DNA of 64,000 nucleotides, taken from the NCBI GenBank assembly GCA_018822105.1, contig JAHJLB010000032.1:1-64000 (forward strand). Direction: 5' to 3'. Positions within the stretch are counted from its first letter, which is position 1. Every line of letters begins with the position of its first letter. The notes beneath the pieces are model-generated. The model had not been told where the DNA came from. It ran no database searches and saw nothing but the letters and a program-made list of their open reading frames with translations. Both the position numbers and the translations under genes were made by a program. Of this stretch, positions 411 through 15,454 are shown piece after piece. This DNA is from Pseudomonadota bacterium (lineage in GTDB: Bacteria > Desulfobacterota > Desulfovibrionia > Desulfovibrionales > Desulfovibrionaceae).

Positions 411-455
<45 letters not shown>

Positions 456-627: not shown

Positions 628-1812
628 ATGTCCACGTTTAAACGGAACAACACTGACCGTCCCGGAGTCTTTTTCATCAAGGGCACGAGCCGTCTCAAGC
701 GTAAGAGCGACTCCCCGGAAGAAGTGGCCAAAACCACCGAGAAGATCTTCTACATCATGTACTACCTCGACGGAAAAAAGATCGAGGAAAAGGCTGGCCG
801 AGAGTCTGAAGGAATGACGCTGGCCAAGGCTGCCAAGCTGCGCGATCAACGCATTCACGGTGTCACACTGCCCAACCGCGAACGGCGCAAGCTTCGCAAG
901 GAGCAAGAGGAGTCCGTAGCCAACACATGGACCATTAATAGACTCTGGGCTGCTTACAAGGAGAATAGACCAACCCTCAAAGGCATCGTCACCGACGAGA
1001 ACCGATTCAAGAACTACCTTGAGCCATTTGCGGGGCTAACGCCAAGCGAACTCACCACCGGCGACATAGACCGCCTGCGCCTAAAGCTGCTCCAGGCCGG
1101 AAAGGCCGCCCAAACAGTCAAGAACATCCTTGAGCTATTGCGGCGCATCATCAATTTCGGGGTCAAGAAAGGCTTGTGCCCTTGGCCTGATCCCTCGCGG
1201 CTGCATTTTGAAATGCCCAGGGTCAACAACGTGAAGACGGAGATGCTGACTCAAGAGCAGCGGCAACGCTTGCTGGAGGCCCTTGGAAACGCCAGAAATC
1301 GAAAGGCAGCAAGCCTCATGCTCTTGGCTTACTACACAGGGATGCGCCGTGGCGAACTGTTCCGCCTAAAATGGGAGAACATCGACTGGGAGAATGGTTT
1401 CATCCACCTCGTTGGCGAGGGGCAGCAGGGAGCCAAAAGTGGAAAGGATGAAAGAATTCCCCTCAGCGGACTCGTCCGGGAGCTTCTCGCCAACCAGGAG
1501 CAAGGTGATAGCCCCTACGTCTTTTCGGGAAAGGGAGGAAAGGGCCACCTTACCGACATCACAAAGCAAGCCAACAGAATAAAGGAAGAAGCAGGGCTGG
1601 CAAAAGATTTCCGAGCCCTGCATGGACTGCGACACACCTTCGCCAGTGTGGCTGTTTCCAACGGCGTGCCACTTTCGATTGTGCAAAAGCTCCTCACCCA
1701 CAAAAGCCCCCAGCTCACTCAACGGTATGCGCACCTGGAAGACGATGCCCTCAAACAGGCAGCAAACAGCGTTGGGGCTTGGCTTGAGGCTAACGGGAAA
1801 GCCGAAAAATGA
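628..1812 (+). CDS. int: Tyrosine recombinase / integrase of element 1
   Basis: This 394-aa phage-type integrase would insert and excise element 1 at the 3' end of tRNA-fMet. The catalytic set is visible: Arg around residue 240 (TGMRRGELF), HGLRHTF around 332-338, a further His in LTHKS and the nucleophilic Tyr in RYAHLEDD around 366. An N-terminal arm-binding/SAM-like domain precedes. The ATG at 628 was chosen because AGGCAGGAG lies just upstream. It lies 170 bp from the left att site, transcribed away from it, at the end distal to the tRNA. It is clearly related to the integrase of element 2 (shared N-terminal pattern RPGV...DGKK..EK.G..SEG), consistent with both using the same tRNA. Confidence 0.93.
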   Translation: MSTFKRNNTDRPGVFFIKGTSRLKRKSDSPEEVAKTTEKIFYIMYYLDGKKIEEKAGRESEGMTLAKAAKLRDQRIHGVTLPNRERRKLRKEQEESVANTWTINRLWAAYKENRPTLKGIVTDENRFKNYLEPFAGLTPSELTTGDIDRLRLKLLQAGKAAQTVKNILELLRRIINFGVKKGLCPWPDPSRLHFEMPRVNNVKTEMLTQEQRQRLLEALGNARNRKAASLMLLAYYTGMRRGELFRLKWENIDWENGFIHLVGEGQQGAKSGKDERIPLSGLVRELLANQEQGDSPYVFSGKGGKGHLTDITKQANRIKEEAGLAKDFRALHGLRHTFASVAVSNGVPLSIVQKLLTHKSPQLTQRYAHLEDDALKQAANSVGAWLEANGKAEK

Positions 1813-3361: not shown

Positions 3362-3417
3362 GGCATTTTGCCTCACACTCTCCGACTAAGTTGAGCCTTG
3401 CCGTCGCGCCAAAATGC
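3362..3417. repeat. Inverted repeat GCATTTTG/CAAAATGC in intergenic gap
   Basis: An 8-bp perfect inverted repeat (arms about 3363-3370 and 3410-3417) lies between the 488-aa gene and the AlpA-like gene. The loop of about 40 bp is too long for a terminator. It could be an operator or part of an oriT region, because mobilization genes follow; nothing else supports either reading. Confidence 0.3.
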
Positions 3418-3518
3418 TTTTAAGCTATAAAATACAAACAGTTAAAAAGTTGCTCTTTTGTCACTCCAATCTCGGGGAGGATATCGGATGCTGCGGGAAA
3501 CAAAAGGAGTTGTTTCCC

Positions 3519-3779
3519 ATGGACCGCACAAAACGTTACCCTCTTCGAACCGAAAATGATCCCCTGCCCCGGACCTCGAACTTAGACGATCCTCACAACG
3601 TCCTGCTGAACGAGAGGCAGGCAGCAGCCTTCCTTGGGCTCACCGATCGTGCCCTCCAGCAACGGCGATATCAATCCCTCCCGCCAGTCTACATCAAGCT
3701 CCCCCAGAGTTCCGCCATCAGGTATCGTCTCTCGTCGCTCCAGGAATTTATCAAAGACGGCGAAGTGCCCCTTCCTTAG
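3519..3779 (+). CDS. AlpA/MerR-like helix-turn-helix regulator or excisionase
   Basis: An 86-aa protein whose segment LNERQAAAFLGLTDRALQQR is a typical HTH_17/AlpA helix-turn-helix, followed by the basic wing region with RYRLSSLQEFI. Such proteins act as transcriptional activators or excisionases (recombination directionality factors) in integrative elements. The start at 3519 is preferred over upstream ATGs because AAAGGAG sits 8 nt before it. The gene is followed after 10 bp by the winged-helix gene and mobilization genes, so it probably heads that operon. It may control the excision/mobilization switch, which is inference from position. Confidence 0.8.
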   Translation: MDRTKRYPLRTENDPLPRTSNLDDPHNVLLNERQAAAFLGLTDRALQQRRYQSLPPVYIKLPQSSAIRYRLSSLQEFIKDGEVPLP

Positions 3780-3789
3780 GAGTTGGACT

Positions 3790-4911
3790 ATGGAAGGAAC
3801 ACCTCCTCTGGTGCCCCCTGGCACACCTCCCCTCGCCCTGGCAGGCATCCTGGCAACCTCCCTTGCCTGCGGCCTTGCGTGCATACCGGCTGGAAGGCAC
3901 CCTGGCCTGCATCCTGACGCACCTGCTTGCGTCCGAAAGCAGCTTCAAAAGATTTCTTGTGAAAGGGGCCTGAACCCTGTCCAGATCAATGTGCTCGGGA
4001 TAATATTCCGGCGGCACCACAGAGTTCTCTCGCATTCAAGCATCGCCGCTGAACTCTACACCACCTATGGGATGAAGTTCCCCGCTACTTCAGTCAAGGG
4101 GATCATTGCCCGACTCGTAAAACGAAATATTATCAAGGGGTGGCAGGCTCGCGAGGGGATGAACCAGGGGAACCATTACACCTTCACCCAGGAACTTCTA
4201 TGCCCACACATCAAAACGGTTCCTCCTGACACACCCCCTGGAACACCAGCCTCTACGCCCCCTGCAACGCAGGCTGAGCATAAATCTGGCAATACTATTC
4301 TAGAACAGTCAGAAAGAATTAATCTTTCTAACTTCTCTGGAGAGTCAACCTCAAGACGCCTTCTCGAGGCTCTCACCGAGGATGATATCTCCTTCCATTG
4401 GCCCAGTCTTGCAATAGAAGGGTTCGGTACAATCCAAATTCGCCAATTCCTCACCCGTCTGGGGCAAGCCGGTCTTTCAGTTCAGCGTGTATTAGAAAGC
4501 CTTCGACATGCAGAATGGGCGCTAACGCATAGCTGCATGCGTGACGGTGACGGGGGGATTGTGCGCACCCCTCTCAATTGGGTGTTCAAGATCATCGCCA
4601 CAGACGGTTACTATCCACGCCCAGAAGGATACATCTCTCCGCAGGAACAAGCTGAGAGAGATGCTGAAGTTGAGGCCAAGCGCCGCACCACTGCAATCGA
4701 AGCCCGAATTGATGCCGAGTGCCAAACGTGGCTCCTGACGCTCTCGCCTGAGGACGTTCAAAGCATCCTGCCGAACGCCCAAGTTCCGATTGGGAAGTCC
4801 GCCCGTGATGCTCTCCTGCGGGCTCATTTCCGAGAGCACGTCCGGCCGAAAATCCTTGCGGCAAAGTCTTCAGAACCCCGTAAAGACGAAAAACAGGAGC
4901 CAGAGGCATGA
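3790..4911 (+). CDS. Winged-helix protein of mobilization/replication module, possible Rep
   Basis: A 373-aa protein starting at ATG 3790 after TAGGAG. The N-terminal 45 residues are low complexity (Pro, Gly, Thr, Ala; PPGTPP), then comes a MarR-like winged-helix region (about residues 50-130, INVLGIIFRRHHRVL...SVKGIIARLVKR). A second Pro/Thr stretch (PPDTPPGTPASTPP) follows, then a helical charged C-terminus. The first 70 bp of coding DNA contain CCTGGCA direct repeats (3817, 3837, 3849). It overlaps the first MobC gene by 4 nt (ATGA), so it is translationally coupled to mobilization genes. An iteron array lies downstream of the operon, so a replication-initiator role is possible but not shown by any motif; a regulator is equally likely. 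Confidence 0.7.
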   Translation: MEGTPPLVPPGTPPLALAGILATSLACGLACIPAGRHPGLHPDAPACVRKQLQKISCERGLNPVQINVLGIIFRRHHRVLSHSSIAAELYTTYGMKFPATSVKGIIARLVKRNIIKGWQAREGMNQGNHYTFTQELLCPHIKTVPPDTPPGTPASTPPATQAEHKSGNTILEQSERINLSNFSGESTSRRLLEALTEDDISFHWPSLAIEGFGTIQIRQFLTRLGQAGLSVQRVLESLRHAEWALTHSCMRDGDGGIVRTPLNWVFKIIATDGYYPRPEGYISPQEQAERDAEVEAKRRTTAIEARIDAECQTWLLTLSPEDVQSILPNAQVPIGKSARDALLRAHFREHVRPKILAAKSSEPRKDEKQEPEA

Positions 4912-5453
4912 ACCAAAAGCTCTGGATCAAGCTGCGCGTGAGCGAGGCCGAGAAGGCGGAATTCGAGGCCAAGGCCCAGGACGCCGGAATGACCCTGGCG
5001 GACTTGATCCGCCACCGGCGGCTCCAATACCGCCTGCGAAAGACCCCGGAAGAACGCGAGGCCATCCGCCTCATCGCCCGAGCCGGGGCGAACCTGAACC
5101 AGATCGCCCGCTGGGCCAACACCTACACCCGCGAAATCGGGGCCGTGCAAGTCATAAGATGGATTGACGCAGTTCGGCATAACGCCCTGACAGAAATCCA
5201 AAAGCGTGACAGCGCTGGAAGTAATGCGAATCGGCGAGACAGGCAGCGGGACGCCAAGCGGGACATTCTGTCCCACTCTGCCGCCCTCACGAATGGGCCT
5301 GCGGGACAAGCCGTCTACTTCGCTGACGGCTCCCCCTTTGGCCCCTTCCGCTGCCCGTCGCGCCGAGAGAAGGTTGGCAGCAAGCCATGTTTTCGCTTCA
5401 CTCAAACGTCTTGCCCTGCGGGGCTGAAGGCAGGCTCACGGGGTTCGCAATGA
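4908..5453 (+). CDS. MobC-like relaxosome accessory protein 1
   Basis: A 181-aa protein whose first 90 residues match the bacterial mobilization protein MobC pattern: an RHH-like start (KLWIKLRVSEAEKAEFEAKA), then LADLIRHRRL and the signature AGANLNQIARWAN. MobC proteins bind oriT next to the relaxase and help melt or nick it. The C-terminal half (after about residue 100) is Arg/Ser-rich and without recognisable fold; it may be a poorly conserved tail. The start overlaps the previous stop (ATGA), and the next gene starts in the same ATGA way. An oriT would be expected near these genes, but I could not place it. Confidence 0.75.
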   Translation: MNQKLWIKLRVSEAEKAEFEAKAQDAGMTLADLIRHRRLQYRLRKTPEEREAIRLIARAGANLNQIARWANTYTREIGAVQVIRWIDAVRHNALTEIQKRDSAGSNANRRDRQRDAKRDILSHSAALTNGPAGQAVYFADGSPFGPFRCPSRREKVGSKPCFRFTQTSCPAGLKAGSRGSQ

Positions 5454-5851
5454 CAGAGCCGGGAACCAAAAGACGGAGAAAGCGGGGGCGCGGAGGTCGG
5501 CCCAAGTCCGACCCGGCTGCGGTGCGCAGGCAGACAATCGGCGTGCGCGTGAATGCCTCGGAATGGGATCAGCTTCAGGTCAAGGCCAGCAGCATGGGAA
5601 TGAGTCCGGCGCAGTGGCTTCGCCATGCGGCCTTGGCTCGGATGCTCCCCAGACGCCCGGCCCCAGAACTGAACCGCCGGGCTTATGCGGACCTGGCGCG
5701 CGTGGGGAGCAACGTGAACCAACTCGCCAAAGCCAGCAACGAGGGCCGAATCCCGGAGCAGCCCAGAGAACTATTCCGCGAACTGTTGGAGCTTCTGCGA
5801 GACGTGCGCTTGCAACTGCTGGGGGCAGTCGATGATTGCGAAGCTGATTAA
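5450..5851 (+). CDS. MobC-like relaxosome accessory protein 2
   Basis: A 133-aa protein beginning with a very basic segment (KRRRKRGRGGRPKSDP), then an RHH-type VRVNASEWDQLQVKASSMG and the MobC signature LARVGSNVNQLAKASN. It overlaps the first MobC-like gene by 4 nt and the relaxase gene by 20 nt, so all are coupled. Two different MobC-like proteins in tandem is unusual: one may be the relaxosome factor and the other a specificity or regulatory variant. They share the G(A/S)N(L/V)NQ(I/L)A core but little else, so they are not a recent duplication. Confidence 0.8.
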   Translation: MTEPGTKRRRKRGRGGRPKSDPAAVRRQTIGVRVNASEWDQLQVKASSMGMSPAQWLRHAALARMLPRRPAPELNRRAYADLARVGSNVNQLAKASNEGRIPEQPRELFRELLELLRDVRLQLLGAVDDCEAD

Positions 5852-6770
5852 GGGCAGCGGCTTCCGTGGAGCCCTGGATTACGACCTGCGCCAGAGCAAG
5901 GGCTACCTGCTTGAGACAAACATGGCCGGAGACGATCCGCGAACCCTGGCACGTGAGTTCGGACAGGTGCGGTCCTTGCGGCCCAATCTGACCAAGGCGG
6001 TATGCCACGTGAGCATCGGCCTGCCACCAGGGGAGACGCTTACAGACGAACAGTGGTGCAGGGCTGCCCACGCCTACCTAGAGGGCATGGGCTACCACGA
6101 CAGCCAATACGTCGTGAGTCGCCACACAAACGCCGAACACCAGCACATCCATATCCTGGCCAACCGCATCAGCATGACCGGTAAGGTGGTTTCGGACAGC
6201 AGGGACTACCAGCGCCAAGAGGCGGTGATGCGCCATTTGGAGAAAGAGCTTGGCCTGACAGTTGTGAAACCGAGCCGCGAGGCACAGAGGCGAGCACCAA
6301 CCAAGGGCGAGATCGAGCACGCGCTGCGCACGGGCAAGGCGTCGACCAAGCAGCGCTTGCAGCAGATGGTGGACGTGGCCGTGAAGGACAAGCCTACTCT
6401 GGATCAATTTACAACTAGGCTGGATACGGTAGGCGTTGAGGTCATCCCCAATGTCGCCAGCACGGGATTGATATCCGGCATTAGCTTCCGACTTGAGGGC
6501 GTGATGATGAAAGGAAGTGACCTGGGGCGCGGCTACACGTGGGGAAACCTTCAAAAGCGAGGAGTGCAATATGGGCAAGGCAGATGCAGCGAAGGAAATG
6601 GCCTCAGAAGAGAACAAGAAGGACATCGACAGCATCTCGGCATTGATGGAAATCTCCCAAGCCGGGAAGCTCGGCCAGGTGGAATCCCTAGTCTTGCAGT
6701 TATCCTTGATGACAAAAGAAATGACGACCGCACGAGACGAATCGGTAAAAGCCACACAAGGAGTCGCTAG
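5832..6770 (+). CDS. mobA: MOBP-type relaxase (MobA/VirD2-like)
   Basis: A 312-aa relaxase, the enzyme that nicks one strand at oriT and stays covalently bound for conjugative transfer. The metal-binding three-histidine motif is seen as EHQHIHILANRI at about residues 103-113; the tyrosine in ALDYDLRQSKG (about residue 17) is a candidate nucleophile. A GRGYTWGNLQKRG motif around 235-247 is typical of this family. The last 65 residues overlap the next gene in another frame and are compositionally odd (many Arg, Gln, Gly), so they may be a tolerated out-of-family tail. Relaxases of this type are often longer and fused to a primase, which is absent. With no T4SS here, it would rely on a helper conjugative element. 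Confidence 0.88.
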   Translation: MIAKLIKGSGFRGALDYDLRQSKGYLLETNMAGDDPRTLAREFGQVRSLRPNLTKAVCHVSIGLPPGETLTDEQWCRAAHAYLEGMGYHDSQYVVSRHTNAEHQHIHILANRISMTGKVVSDSRDYQRQEAVMRHLEKELGLTVVKPSREAQRRAPTKGEIEHALRTGKASTKQRLQQMVDVAVKDKPTLDQFTTRLDTVGVEVIPNVASTGLISGISFRLEGVMMKGSDLGRGYTWGNLQKRGVQYGQGRCSEGNGLRREQEGHRQHLGIDGNLPSREARPGGIPSLAVILDDKRNDDRTRRIGKSHTRSR

Positions 6771-7071
6771 CCTGGCGCGCAGGATTAGCGAAGAGAGCAC
6801 CGCAGAGCTGAAACGTGCATATACAACGCTCAGTGAGACGATCACCCAAGCAGAGGGCATCACCAGTAGAATGGATGCCCTTTCCAGGCGTCCCAATTGG
6901 GAGCCTTTTGCCCTTGCCCTTGTGAGCGCCTTCGTCATGGCTGCGCTCGTCGCAGGGATCTTGTACGTGACCTTGCCGGACTACGGCCAGATCACGAAGA
7001 ACCAGGTGGCGATCTATCATGCCGTCGAGGCCGTGAAGGGAGGGAAAGGGAAAGCACAGGCAGGGAAATAG
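6571..7071 (+). CDS. MobB-like membrane protein overlapping the relaxase
   Basis: A 166-aa protein starting at ATG 6571 with GAGGAG 6 nt upstream; 200 nt of it lie inside the relaxase gene in another frame. The N-terminal 110 residues are charged and probably coiled-coil, and a single membrane segment (FALALVSAFVMAALVAGILY) is near residue 115-135. In RSF1010-type plasmids mobB likewise lies inside mobA in another frame, has a membrane segment and stabilises the relaxosome at the secretion channel. The arrangement here is the same, so I infer an analogous role. No sequence homology to RSF1010 MobB was tested. Confidence 0.7.
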   Translation: MGKADAAKEMASEENKKDIDSISALMEISQAGKLGQVESLVLQLSLMTKEMTTARDESVKATQGVASLARRISEESTAELKRAYTTLSETITQAEGITSRMDALSRRPNWEPFALALVSAFVMAALVAGILYVTLPDYGQITKNQVAIYHAVEAVKGGKGKAQAGK

Positions 7072-7682
7072 CCAGGGCCAACGGTCATCAAAGACGACGG
7101 GATAACGGCGAATTCACTGGCCCTGTGCGCGAGCTCCAATCAAGGACTATTTCTACCGCAAAGCACTAGGACTACCGTGTTCGGGTAATCTTGAGGAGGC
7201 TCGACAGCTATATGCTAGCGATCATCGGTCGGCTGTAGAAGGTCGGAATGCCGGTGTAGAAATGGGATATTGGGGTGTAGAAGACCAAAATTGCGGTGTA
7301 GAAAAGCCCAAAGGCGGTGTAGAAAACAGATAAGCGGTGTAGAAGAAATTTCAACAAGCTAGAATGTCAACCATTTGTTTATCGAGACAGCTTTTAGCGA
7401 CATCCCCCCATTTCTGCCCAAGCACATCAGCAAGGCGAGTATGAACGCGGATGGTGTCGAGCTTTACGAGGCAATCAATAATCGGACCTACCCACCCCAC
7501 CCACGAAAACAAGTCCAAACGAATGGCTCTTTTCTCAGGTTTCCACTGGCCCGAAAAGAGGAAGGCAGGTCAGCTATACCAAATCACTCAAATCAGCTTC
7601 CCCTCTAGGGCCAACTTGCCTCTTGTCCGAAAAGTAGTTAGTTAAGAAAAAATATGCCACTGACCTACCTGGGGAGGCCCAT
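7072..7682. other. Non-coding region with iterons (putative origin)
   Basis: A 611-bp gap between mobB and the Panacea gene. It contains the iteron array at 7232-7344 and AT-rich sequence around 7340-7380. A few short frames are open (for example about 75 codons from 7375), but none has a good ribosome-binding site or familiar sequence, so I call no gene. It may hold the element's replication origin and the promoter of the toxin-antitoxin pair. Confidence 0.5.
7232..7344 (+). repeat. Iteron array: six GGTGTAGAA repeats at 21-bp spacing
   Basis: GGTGTAGAA (first copy GCTGTAGAA) occurs at 7232, 7253, 7274, 7295, 7316 and 7336: five steps of 21, 21, 21, 21 and 20 bp. That is two helical turns, so all copies face the same side of the DNA. 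This is the typical layout of Rep-binding iterons of theta-replicating plasmids. The sequence between the copies is not conserved, so this is not a CRISPR or a simple tandem repeat. It lies downstream of the mobilization operon. A replication origin or a copy-control/partition site is the best reading. Confidence 0.85.
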
Positions 7683-8228
7683 ATGGGAATCACCTACAGA
7701 CCTAATGCCCGAAAAATCCTTGAAGCCGTCGTCTATGTCGCCAGCAAAGCAGAAGAACGTGACTACCACCATATTCTGAAGGTACTGTTTTACGCAGACA
7801 AGCAGCACCTTGAGCAGCTTGGACGACCAGTCACCGGAGACAGCTACAAGAAAATGGATTGTGGGCCCGTAGGCACAAAGGCCTATGACTTTCTGAAGCA
7901 AAGCGAGTTCCTTACAAACGAGGAAAGAACGCTAGCATCGATGTCGCTTGAAAAAATCCAAGAAGTACCGCCAACAGTGGCCGCGAGGAGAGAGCCAGAC
8001 CTTTCTTTCCTCTCAAAATCGGACCTAAGATGTTTAGATGCAGCGATATCTCACTGCGCGAAAAAGTCCTTTGATGAGCTTTGCAAATTGACTCACGAAG
8101 AGAAATCATGGCGTGAAGCGCAGCTCAATGAGTACATGGATTACAATCTAATCATCGACGAAAAAATCACAAACCGTGAGCAGCTTATAAAATTCATTGA
8201 AGAAACATCGCAAACGCTTGTTTTCTGA
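7683..8228 (+). CDS. Panacea-domain (SocA-like) antitoxin
   Basis: A 181-aa protein with the Panacea/DUF4065 signature in its first 70 residues: ILKVLFYADKQHLEQLGRPV followed by TGDSYKKMDCGPVG. Panacea domains are antitoxin modules paired with many unrelated toxins; they neutralise the partner by direct binding. The ATG at 7683 follows GGGGAGGCCCAT. The next gene starts 8 bp after its stop, so antitoxin and toxin are co-transcribed. The C-terminal half (100-181) is helical and likely contacts the toxin. It probably maintains element 1 (addiction) or acts in phage defence. Confidence 0.88.
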   Translation: MGITYRPNARKILEAVVYVASKAEERDYHHILKVLFYADKQHLEQLGRPVTGDSYKKMDCGPVGTKAYDFLKQSEFLTNEERTLASMSLEKIQEVPPTVAARREPDLSFLSKSDLRCLDAAISHCAKKSFDELCKLTHEEKSWREAQLNEYMDYNLIIDEKITNREQLIKFIEETSQTLVF

Positions 8229-10886: not shown

Positions 10887-12626
10887 TCATAGGGTTAGTG
10901 AATGAACGTTTTCAGGTCCGAAAAGCGCCTCAAGTGTTTTCAGTGCATTGCTGGACAAGCGCTGTGTCAAAAGCACTGCTAGCCGTTTCTTCGGTCGTGA
11001 GAGAACGACATAAAAGAGGTTACGCGACCGGTAAAAACCCTTCTCATTTTTTGGGGTGATTTCTCTCGTGTGCATGGCATCTAGCATTCTCGGCCAATTA
11101 TAATGATTCCATCCGCCCGCAAGAACTACTAGTACATTCTCAAATTCCGCCCCTTTCACGCTATGCTGTGTGGCAAAAGGGGTTGATCCTTCGATAAATT
11201 CCGTTAGCTTAACGATCTCTGGATAAGGGATAGCCCTGAGGCCACGGTGCCTCTTAAGGCTTGATGATTCTTCTTCCCCCGTGCTGTCCCGATCGAAAGC
11301 TAGAAGCTCATCTTCACGCCGGGAGACGCGGGCAGGCAACCTTGGGCGTCGAGTTGTCTTCAGGTGATCAAGGACGTTTCCGACAGTCCCACTTAAACGA
11401 AGCCGCCCCAATGCAAACATATCAGTCCTCCATGCCTCCTTCTCCGCATGGCTTCTGATAGGCTGAAATTTTCCTAAGATGTGAAACATCTCTCCGTAAC
11501 GGCCACTTTCATAAGCCCGGTACATGGGTTCGAGAGTGTCCACTAAAAAGGCAATTGTACTATCTTCCTTCTTGGCAAACGCTTCTTTCCGTTTCTTAAA
11601 GACTTCGACTATGCCGGGGTAGCCCTGCTCCTCCGCCAAGGCCACATGGGTCAGCATCAAGATCTTAGTAGTTGTCGGCGAGAAGTCCCAACCGTCTGCC
11701 GTTAATCGTGCTCTAAGCGCAGCAAGGTGCTCCTGGGCGACAGGTGCGAAAAGATCCTCTTTCGAGTGCGTGTCATCCGTGCGATCGCCGACGTACGCAT
11801 TAGTATGAAACACTCGCGCCTCACCAATTGCTTCCGGATCTTTTACAACCTGGAACAATTCTGGCCTGAGCCTATTAAGTACGTTGACCACTGCCGGCAC
11901 GGAGCGAAAGTTTGCTCCCTTATTTATGCCTTTGACGTTCGCGTACTCTGCAAATCCGAAATCATCCCGATAGATGGTTTGCCAATGATCACCGAACAGA
12001 CCGACAAGCGGCCCCTCTCCACCTTCAAAGAAGTGTTTGGCCACTGCTCCTGCGAAATCCTTGTCTGTATCTTGATACTCATCAATGAGCAAAACGGGGT
12101 ACGAACTTGTGAACTGCTGCCTAAACTTTCTTAGATCCATCAACTTTGCCATGAGCTGTGGAACATCGTCATGGCTTATTGTAACTTTGTCTTCATCTAT
12201 TCCGAAAAATCCAAGGTTATACTCGACAGCGCGGGAACCTAACCCACCGACCTCTTCCACCTTCTCCGTGTTACGTTGTATTTTCGGTATCAATGCACGA
12301 AGTTGGCTTTGAAAACGGGACATAAATCCCCAGCAAAAAGAATGTATCGTTTCTACAACGATAGCAGGATGGCCGTCGATTTCCTTTATTATTTCATCCC
12401 GCGCGACTTGTGTGTATGTAATGCATGCTACTTTCTGCCCATTCTTAATATATATATTGCCATGATCAGTTATAAGTCGTTTCAAAGCCTTTACCAGTGA
12501 ATATGTCTTCCCAGCACCGGCACCGGCCTCTAACCGAAAATTTTGTCTGGCGTCGATACACGCATTTACATGCAGCTGCGCAGTATTAGCAGCAACCTCG
12601 GCGGGGTTTAAGAGCGTACTAGGCAT
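10887..12626 (-). CDS. gajB: GajB, UvrD-like helicase of Gabija
   Basis: A 579-aa UvrD/Rep-family helicase. Walker A is AGAGAGKTYSLV (about 34-45), Walker B is LLIDEYQDTD (about 195), and later helicase motifs include FATQHSVKGAEFENVLV near 505 and RNLFYVVLSRPKKRLAVL near 545. In Gabija, GajB senses DNA ends or ssDNA made during phage replication and stimulates the GajA nuclease. It overlaps gajA by 8 nt and is transcribed with it. Length is in line with other GajB proteins (about 500 aa). The identification rests on the UvrD-like domain next to an OLD nuclease, the defining pair. Confidence 0.9.
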   Translation of the reverse strand: MPSTLLNPAEVAANTAQLHVNACIDARQNFRLEAGAGAGKTYSLVKALKRLITDHGNIYIKNGQKVACITYTQVARDEIIKEIDGHPAIVVETIHSFCWGFMSRFQSQLRALIPKIQRNTEKVEEVGGLGSRAVEYNLGFFGIDEDKVTISHDDVPQLMAKLMDLRKFRQQFTSSYPVLLIDEYQDTDKDFAGAVAKHFFEGGEGPLVGLFGDHWQTIYRDDFGFAEYANVKGINKGANFRSVPAVVNVLNRLRPELFQVVKDPEAIGEARVFHTNAYVGDRTDDTHSKEDLFAPVAQEHLAALRARLTADGWDFSPTTTKILMLTHVALAEEQGYPGIVEVFKKRKEAFAKKEDSTIAFLVDTLEPMYRAYESGRYGEMFHILGKFQPIRSHAEKEAWRTDMFALGRLRLSGTVGNVLDHLKTTRRPRLPARVSRREDELLAFDRDSTGEEESSSLKRHRGLRAIPYPEIVKLTEFIEGSTPFATQHSVKGAEFENVLVVLAGGWNHYNWPRMLDAMHTREITPKNEKGFYRSRNLFYVVLSRPKKRLAVLLTQRLSSNALKTLEALFGPENVHSLTL

Positions 12627-14658
12627 TTGTTCCAGCGCCCCCAGTTTCTTTTGGAAGCGGTGTTGGTGAACATGGTGGCGCTGAAAGCCAGACGAGCCCT
12701 TCTTTAATATATAATGGCACCTTCCAGGCTGGCACTTTTATTCCATAATGGAGAGCGGTCTCTGTTTTCGGCATGTCCTGCGCTTGCAGCCAAGACTCAT
12801 CCCCCCAATGCGTCCCTGCAATTGGTTTGAAAAGTTCAGGATTAGCTAGAATCATCGCATCCTCATAACTTCTAGCGCAATAGCTCGAGTTCTCTTCAGG
12901 GATTTGGTAGGCGATTCTTCGATACCCCACAACCTTGTCTGAGGGAGTCTTCGCTGCGAGTTTTTCGAGAGTGATCTGCTCCCCCTCGGGCACATCAAAC
13001 CATTTTTTGATTGCTGGATTACAGGTCCGGACACCTTGTGAATATGGACACTTTACCCATCTCCTAGATTCTTCGCTAAATACGACGGCATCAAGATCGG
13101 TAATGACAAGGGTCTTCAACTCGAGGAAATCTAGAAGTTTGTAGAAAGTGTTCGCGTTTGCCCCCCCTACCTCGACCACTGTAAGGTATTGCTCTGTCAA
13201 CTTGGAACCAGCAGGTAGAGTTTCATCCATAATCTGGCAAATACGTGGCATCAAAATCCGCTCCGTCGTTCCTTCAATCAGGATTACTTTGTCTGCAAAG
13301 TAGAGATCACATTTTGTTAAGGTCATGTACTGATGGAGGAAATCAACATCCTCAGGGGGGATTGAGCTCATCCCACGCCTAAAATCCTTTACCTGAGTAT
13401 GTCGCGCCATTTTATCGTGAGACGGATTGGTCAAGAAGTACCGAATTGATTCAAAACTCGCTGCGTTTGCCAGGTGAGACGAATGGGTCGACACAACAAA
13501 CTGAACCTGCCAGACTGGTCCCTCGGAATAATCCTTCGAGAAGGTCGCGACAGCGTCTGCCAACTGATTGATGAATACCTCCTGCATTTGTGGATGCAGA
13601 TGCGCCTCGGGCTCCTCAATAAAAATCAAATGCACTCCCGGGAGCGTGGGGCACGCCCGGTAGGCTTTATGAAATGTCATAAGCTGTAGGAGAATATAGA
13701 TTAGGTTCCTCGCACCTAGCCCGTTATAGCCTTCCGGTAAATGAACGCCATGGGAGCCGGTGTAAAAGACCTTTGTATGCTCCGACAGCAAACCCTCTAC
13801 ATTAAGAGCTGTCTCAGTCCTCAGTTCCGGATCGCTCAGGCCTGGGTAACCAAACTTACTAAATGTCGGAAGCAGCTCTTTGAGCTTCTCGTTGAACCCT
13901 GCCTGAATCTCCTTTTCCACCATTCCCACTGCAGCTTTGAGATCCGCCGCGATATTCTGGTCGCCCAGTGCCGCCGTTGACGTTGACGCTGTTTGGAAAA
14001 GAATTTCAAGCAGTTTCCCGAGAACGTAAGGGTCACCCTTCTTTGATTGGTCCAAGGCGCGCTGCGCTCCTACAAAGCCGTATTGAAACAGAGCTGAGAC
14101 ATGCTTCTGTTCCAGCTCACGTTCGTTTGATGGGTCTGTTGGGTCAACCGCAATAGAGTGCAGCGAATAGGCCTTCGGAAGTGAATCCCTGAGACCCCGG
14201 AATATCTGAGCATCACCTCCCCCCCCAGATGTTGAGGGAAGGAATAAATCGTCAAGCGTGGCGATACTCGCGCGATAGTCAAACCTGATCATAACCTCGG
14301 TGCACTCAGGATCAAGGTCGATAATGAAAGCCGAAAGCGGTCCAAGGTCAAGTGCGGCAGGATCATAGTCAAGCGTCAGGGTGACAGATATTACCGGGAG
14401 CGCCTCGATCACCTCTTCAGGGGACACGTCGTCGTCTTTGAGCCTTTTGGCGTTGAGAAATTTGGGCCGCGCACTGGCTGAAAAGTCCTCAAGCTTAAAC
14501 TGTCCGATCTTGGTGCCTATCAGCCGGTCGAACACCTCTGTGAGAGACGTCTTTCCGCTGTTATTGCGCCCAACGATGACAGTTGAGAGCGACTCGAAAG
14601 ATATCTCTACGTTTTCGAGAAGGCGGAAGTTTATAATCTTGGCTTTAGATATTCTCAT
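12619..14658 (-). CDS. gajA: GajA, OLD-family ATPase/TOPRIM nuclease of Gabija
   Basis: A 679-aa OLD-family endonuclease. The ABC-type ATPase part shows Walker A GRNNSGKTSL at about 30-39, Walker B/signature FIEEPEAHLHPQMQ and the H-loop VVSTHSSHLAN. The TOPRIM nuclease part follows with VILIEGTTERILMP (catalytic Glu) and LVITDLDAV (DxD). GajA nicks or cuts DNA when nucleotide levels fall during infection. ATG 14658 is preferred over 14685 because GGGAG lies about 9 nt upstream and MRISKAKIINFR is a standard OLD start. Together with gajB it forms a complete two-gene Gabija system. The promoter must lie in 14659-14850. Confidence 0.93.
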   Translation of the reverse strand: MRISKAKIINFRLLENVEISFESLSTVIVGRNNSGKTSLTEVFDRLIGTKIGQFKLEDFSASARPKFLNAKRLKDDDVSPEEVIEALPVISVTLTLDYDPAALDLGPLSAFIIDLDPECTEVMIRFDYRASIATLDDLFLPSTSGGGGDAQIFRGLRDSLPKAYSLHSIAVDPTDPSNERELEQKHVSALFQYGFVGAQRALDQSKKGDPYVLGKLLEILFQTASTSTAALGDQNIAADLKAAVGMVEKEIQAGFNEKLKELLPTFSKFGYPGLSDPELRTETALNVEGLLSEHTKVFYTGSHGVHLPEGYNGLGARNLIYILLQLMTFHKAYRACPTLPGVHLIFIEEPEAHLHPQMQEVFINQLADAVATFSKDYSEGPVWQVQFVVSTHSSHLANAASFESIRYFLTNPSHDKMARHTQVKDFRRGMSSIPPEDVDFLHQYMTLTKCDLYFADKVILIEGTTERILMPRICQIMDETLPAGSKLTEQYLTVVEVGGANANTFYKLLDFLELKTLVITDLDAVVFSEESRRWVKCPYSQGVRTCNPAIKKWFDVPEGEQITLEKLAAKTPSDKVVGYRRIAYQIPEENSSYCARSYEDAMILANPELFKPIAGTHWGDESWLQAQDMPKTETALHYGIKVPAWKVPLYIKEGLVWLSAPPCSPTPLPKETGGAGTNA

Positions 14659-14856
14659 TCGCTCTTTCTCCCAGCGTTGAACCATTCACAACTTGAACTT
14701 TGCAGCAAATCCGAGTCCTATCTAGCGCGAGCACAGACAAATTGCTAGCCGTTAGCGAAAGATCTTTCAAAAGTATTAGCGCTCTTGACCTTACAAGCAA
14801 ACAAGCGCCACATTTGCTCCGAGATACCAGCCGCAACTGTGCCGCCATCTTAGATT

Positions 14857-15268: not shown

Positions 15269-15318
<50 letters not shown>

Positions 15319-15454
15319 ATACCTTACTTTGCTACCCTTTTTCTACCCAGCTTAACTGAGCATAAAATCCTTTTATTACGCTTGACTAATTGCACACACA
15401 TCGGGTAGCCAACCCGTACTGTGTTTAACGATTTTTAGCCATTTTTAAGCGTTA

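Follow-up and report, generated by a model that had tools for sequence, protein, structure and literature searches.

What does a short, evenly phased repeat array do between the mobility genes and the cargo of an integrative element in a member of the Desulfovibrionaceae? The question was raised by a 64,000-nucleotide stretch of contig JAHJLB010000032.1 (the window). In it, an original prediction placed a six-copy iteron array that would be bound by a winged-helix protein encoded in the same element, P0001, and would allow the element to replicate after excision. To our knowledge, replication of integrative mobilizable elements (IMEs) after excision is unsettled outside a few models such as SGI1.

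The host element

The array carrier is an IME of 14.9 kb, bounded by perfect 45-bp attachment repeats at a tRNA gene and equipped with an integrase and a relaxase (Table 1). Its gene order is tyrosine integrase, a 506-residue protein without assignment, a small HTH protein (its HTH_17 match is below cut-off, E=0.0071), the Rep-like winged-helix protein P0001, two NikA/MobC-type proteins, a MOBP-type relaxase, the array and the cargo. The array lies inside a ~600-bp non-coding stretch, with mobility genes on one side and cargo on the other. Within 5832–7071 the 312-residue relaxase ORF is overlapped in a different frame by an ORF that may be a separate overlapping mob gene or the frameshift-split tail of the relaxase. 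The cargo includes a Gabija system; related elements with the array carry different defence-like cargo, such as a WD40 repeat protein (G153) and PDC-M21A/B candidates (G156). A transposon end (IS21/Tn7-like) was rejected, as neither a second array nor a transposase was seen beside the array or in related elements.

Table 1. Features of the array-bearing element in the window
Feature	Position	Strand	Evidence or remark
Left attachment repeat, 45 bp	411–455		identical to 15269–15313
Tyrosine integrase	628–1812	+	Pfam PF00589, E=5e-30
Small HTH protein, weak HTH_17/excisionase-like	3414–3779	+	related to HTH genes of other g1 array elements
Rep-like protein P0001, predicted winged-helix domain	3790–4911	+	relatives after parA on Desulfovibrionales plasmids
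NikA/MobC-type mobilization protein	4908–5453	+	Pfam PF21983, E=1.3e-14
Second NikA/MobC-type protein	5387–5851	+	Pfam PF21983, E=4.1e-14
MobA/VirD2-like (MOBP-type) relaxase	5832–6770	+	Pfam PF03432, E=5e-34; NCBIfam TraI_MobP_relax, 8e-24
ORF overlapping relaxase in another frame	6517–7071	+	membrane-like segment by eye
Conserved block TACCGCAAAGCACTAGGACTACCG, 54 bp upstream of array	7154–7177		minus strand TAGTGCT/TTG
Array of six units with core CGGTGTAGAA, period 21 bp (20 bp at the last step)	7232–7344	+	recurs as 6 x 21 bp in seven other elements
SocA/Panacea-domain protein, first cargo gene after array	7683–8228	+	Pfam PF13274, E=1.3e-19
GajB (Gabija defence), cargo	10887–12626	-	PADLOC, E=2.4e-246
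GajA (Gabija defence), cargo	12619–14685	-	PADLOC, E=5.6e-266
Right attachment repeat, 45 bp	15269–15313		within tRNA-Met gene 15269–15341 (-)

Array geometry

All six copies lie on the plus strand, with GCTGTAGAA at 7232 and GGTGTAGAA at 7253, 7274, 7295, 7316 and 7336; the successive spacings of 21, 21, 21, 21 and 20 bp are exactly those first described. The core consensus of the six copies is (G/C)G(G/C)TGTAGAA. Column conservation over five 21-bp units reaches 0.978, compared with 0.778 at the second-best place in the window and a best score of 0.756 among 100 order-1 Markov sequences of 64 kb each, evaluated at periods of 20–22. This regularity is far above chance expectation. A genome-wide search found no second such array, Tandem Repeats Finder picks up part of it, Rfam has no match for the region, and the array DNA was absent from the plasmid records searched.

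An iteron origin is recognized by at least three direct repeats of 17–22 bp in helical phase, near-whole-unit conservation, a DnaA box with an AT-rich unwinding region, and a cognate Rep_3/RepA-type initiator. The array has the first of these, with six units at 21 bp. Conservation is confined to ~10 of the 21 positions in each unit, the other 11 bp being variable; no DnaA box was found near the array, no strongly AT-rich segment adjoins it in the window, and P0001 has no match in Pfam, PHROG or NCBIfam. Rep_3-type plasmid origins likewise comprise several direct repeats in helical phase at ~21 bp, but their iterons are conserved beyond ~10 bp per unit, unlike this array, in which about half of each unit is conserved, and the Rep-like protein here lacks a Rep_3 match. 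The description of the repeat as a 21-bp iteron is corrected in this respect. A role in an origin region is plausible, although the lack of a DnaA box and of a strongly AT-rich segment speaks against a textbook oriV.

Related arrays in two genera

The layout of exactly six units at 21 bp recurs in seven further elements from two genera of the family. Three of them (G153, G156 and G158) belong to the genus of the window, g1, and were located by a DNA search of the family; the other four (G199, G201, G205 and G210) belong to a second genus, g33, and were located by inspecting the surroundings of relatives of the HTH and Rep-like genes. Every spacing in the eight elements is 21 bp, the sole exception being the last one in the window. 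About 40 other loci scanned in the same way, with fixed patterns and 20-kb neighbourhoods that diverged arrays may escape, held no intergenic 6 x 21 array. A match in G289 was rejected because it appears to fall in a coding repeat, and one in G224, short and in an unrelated sequence context, was set aside.

The core differs between lineages: GTGTAGAA in the window and G153, GTGTAGGA in G156 and G158, TGTAGGGA in G199, TGTGGGGA/TGTAGNGA in G205 and G210, and AGGGGAACA in G201. Between the window and G153 the cores are 93% identical and the spacers 68%; for G156 the values are 88% and 45%. The ~10-bp core thus diverges between lineages, and the spacers are mostly without match. Since conservation is higher in the cores than in the spacers, we take the units to be evenly spaced putative binding sites under purifying selection. 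The recurrence of six sites at 21 bp in eight elements gives good support to the predicted multi-site protein-binding array, as far as sequence comparison can.

Similar words occur elsewhere. Among the motif matches seen in public genomes and viral contigs, all were coding repeats, microsatellites or unrelated intergenic arrays of Bacillales. The chromosomes of Neobacillus, Bacillus and Jeotgalibacillus contain numerous 21-bp arrays, most of them intergenic, built on a TGTAGAA core with up to ~26 units and located between housekeeping genes without a transposase (L024 5052–5553, L042 467–990, L030, L087, L033, L074 and others). On a 3.9-kb contig of Jeotgalibacillus, a Rep_3 initiator gene is directly preceded by four TGTAGAAACCCCTGAATATAAA repeats of 22 bp (L015 393–465), likely an iteron origin with a similar core word. 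In the integrase-bearing element of G007 (L277 8990–9110), about five 22-bp repeats with the core TTGCCGCTT lie at the 3′ end of a helix-turn-helix gene that adjoins an HTH gene.

Linkage to the putative transfer origin

Each oriT-type motif found in the two genera (8/8) has an array 45–155 bp away, the copy in the window being degenerate. Genus-wide searches returned the conserved block in four of 15 g1 genomes and the g33 oriT in four of 17, in each case exactly the array carriers. The putative transfer origin is the best correlate of the array, which by these comparisons appears to track the oriT motif and not the rep gene.

The type of origin differs between the genera. On its minus strand the block in G153, G156 and G158, which lies ~43–60 bp upstream of the array, has the sequence TAGTGCG/TTG, where the proven MobV nick site of IMESag-rpsI reads TAGTGCG/TTA (PMC5090054). 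These three elements have the nic sequence TAGTG(T/C)G/TT beside a MobV relaxase gene, as in the MobV (pMV158/IMESag-rpsI) oriT. The latter, as described in PMC5090054, differs in having no six-site array. The window block is MobV-nic-like with one base changed, its relaxase is MOBP-type, and no MobV relaxase match was found in its genome. Arrays of g33 lie ~143–155 bp from an oriT in which an inverted repeat, GCATTTTGT/ACAAAATGC, adjoins GTATCCTGCC. From the RP4/R64 nick consensus we take this oriT to be MOBP-like; in G199 and G201 a NikA/MobC-type gene then follows it. A MOBP nic site of the window's own near the array was rejected, as ATCCTG-type sites occur only inside genes, far from the array.

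Such linkage raises the possibility that the array serves transfer only. The six sites would then belong to oriT and load an accessory protein of the relaxosome or coupling step, the element's own or that of a helper conjugative element, as a recognition signal for mobilization. We consider this a credible reading, held at rather less than even confidence. The oriT-type motif accompanies the array in all eight elements, whereas the array directly follows the rep operon in just three of them (G199, G205 and G210). In g33 the oriT core is constant while MobC proteins and arrays both diverge: G205 and G210 share both, and MobC identity between G199, G201 and the G205/G210 pair is 38–44%. Element-specific sites around a shared oriT layout also have a precedent in the pWBG749 family, whose diverging specificity sites (SmpO) lie beside oriT, but as two sites per oriT and not six phased ones (PMC8136818). 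Against a pure transfer role, there is no RHH MobC among the detected genes of G153, G156 and G158, and the array of the window is intact although its nick-like site is altered and no MobV relaxase was found in its genome. Moreover, elements differ in where the array lies with respect to the nick, both in strand and in side, which also counts against the composite origin considered below.

Replication-type proteins of the array elements

Every array element encodes a replication-type protein, either Rep-like or a Cch-like helicase. An HTH gene lies just before the Rep-like gene in the window, G199, G201 and G205, and just before a DUF927 helicase related to SCCmec Cch1 in G153, G156 and G158, which also encode a MobV relaxase with a Toprim domain. 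These three resemble SCCmec Cch elements in the helicase and are set apart by a tyrosine integrase, the MobV relaxase and the 21-bp array. Among proteins encoded by the elements, the small HTH protein is the only candidate for DNA binding that recurs in all or almost all array carriers, and the evidence pointing to it is indirect.

It had been thought that the element of the window has no obvious Rep. P0001 is probably a replication protein, because members of its family directly follow parA on Desulfovibrionales plasmids (pDMC1, pDMC2, pDRET01, pDsulf-L2-1 and a Desulfobaculum plasmid). Its single-sequence structure prediction is of low confidence (pLDDT 50) and gives only a hint of a winged helix; no relatives were found in viral contigs or phages. 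A plasmid-type oriV bound specifically by P0001, as initially proposed, would suit this family history and the predicted winged-helix domain. We nonetheless judge it improbable. Homologous arrays occur in the same-genus genomes of G153, G156 and G158, in which no P0001 relative was detected (G153 is only 87% complete), and closer relatives, 34–43% identical, occur in G062, G065, G169, G285 and G192 without an array, some of them with related HTH or 506-residue genes. Judged by this distribution, P0001 is not the general binder of the array. Tandem repeats also lie in or near the 5′ part of several rep-like genes of the P0001 family; on Desulfovibrionales plasmids and elements they are 20–24 bp long and inside the coding sequence (L225 1064–1140, L226 10565–10644, L227 10697–10800 and L213 10282–10399), which suggests that origins of this family may lie within the gene.

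A centromere-like partition site, or an array that controls transcription of the neighbouring cargo or mobility genes, is the least probable reading. Some plasmids do use arrays of ~20-bp direct repeats as centromeres, and in g1 the array lies between mobility genes and cargo, but the array elements examined showed no ParA/ParM-type gene, neither a promoter nor a terminator match lies next to the array, and the cargo varies between elements while the array is constant.

A proposed composite origin region

Our tentative first choice, to which we give a little less than an even chance, is that, in a family of integrative elements that are mobilizable or conjugative, the array supplies the iteron-type portion of a composite origin that works on the circle once it is excised. 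After the element has left the chromosome, a DNA-binding protein would fill the six sites, equally phased along one face of the helix, next to oriT. The resulting nucleoprotein complex would help to set off processing of the circular DNA, most probably by initiating replication in spatial coupling to oriT. We infer protein binding, complex assembly and the role in replication or transfer.

Two points tip the balance slightly from transfer towards replication: a replication-type protein is encoded in each array element, and HTH_17, rep, iterons is also the order in SGI1. In the experimentally proven SGI1 replicon, S004, an HTH_17 gene, is followed by S003, rep, and the iteron oriV, and the excised island no longer replicated when the iterons were deleted (PMC7433901, PMC7826253). 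Both are IMEs in which a gene of HTH_17 type, in the window a match below cut-off, directly precedes rep, with GC-rich-cored iteron-type repeats beyond it; the resemblance is one of gene order. The two also differ: SGI1 has four 16–17-bp iterons with DnaA box(es) and AT-rich flanks, adjoining rep, whereas here six ~10-bp cores recur every 21 bp next to oriT, and no DnaA box was found.

Apart from the short conserved core, the absent DnaA boxes and, in the window, the lack of a strongly AT-rich neighbouring segment, other observations weigh against a composite origin. In five of the eight elements more than 2 kb separate the array from the rep gene. The window and G153 have similar arrays, yet their replication proteins are unrelated; conversely, the Reps of G199 and G201 are 77% identical, yet their array cores differ. 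When the array was compared with HTH, Rep and integrase for co-evolution, no single gene accounted for all array similarities. Transfer, for its part, is favoured because the oriT linkage is perfect and because MobC and array diverge together in g33.

The array elements combine unrelated relaxases (MobV, MOBP) with unrelated replication proteins. A broader formulation, which we think rather unlikely, is that six 21-bp-phased sites form a relaxase-independent module and constant partner of oriT, as a compound oriV/oriT or as a signal for a shared helper or host factor.

Biological significance

Proteins that initiate copying or transfer of the excised element probably dock at the array. It is small and transferable, its copy number is constant, and in the Desulfovibrionaceae it accompanies oriT in otherwise unrelated mobility modules. 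It offers a well-defined target for deletion and binding experiments, and its motif and spacing provide a signature for finding origin regions in elements with phage-defence cargo.
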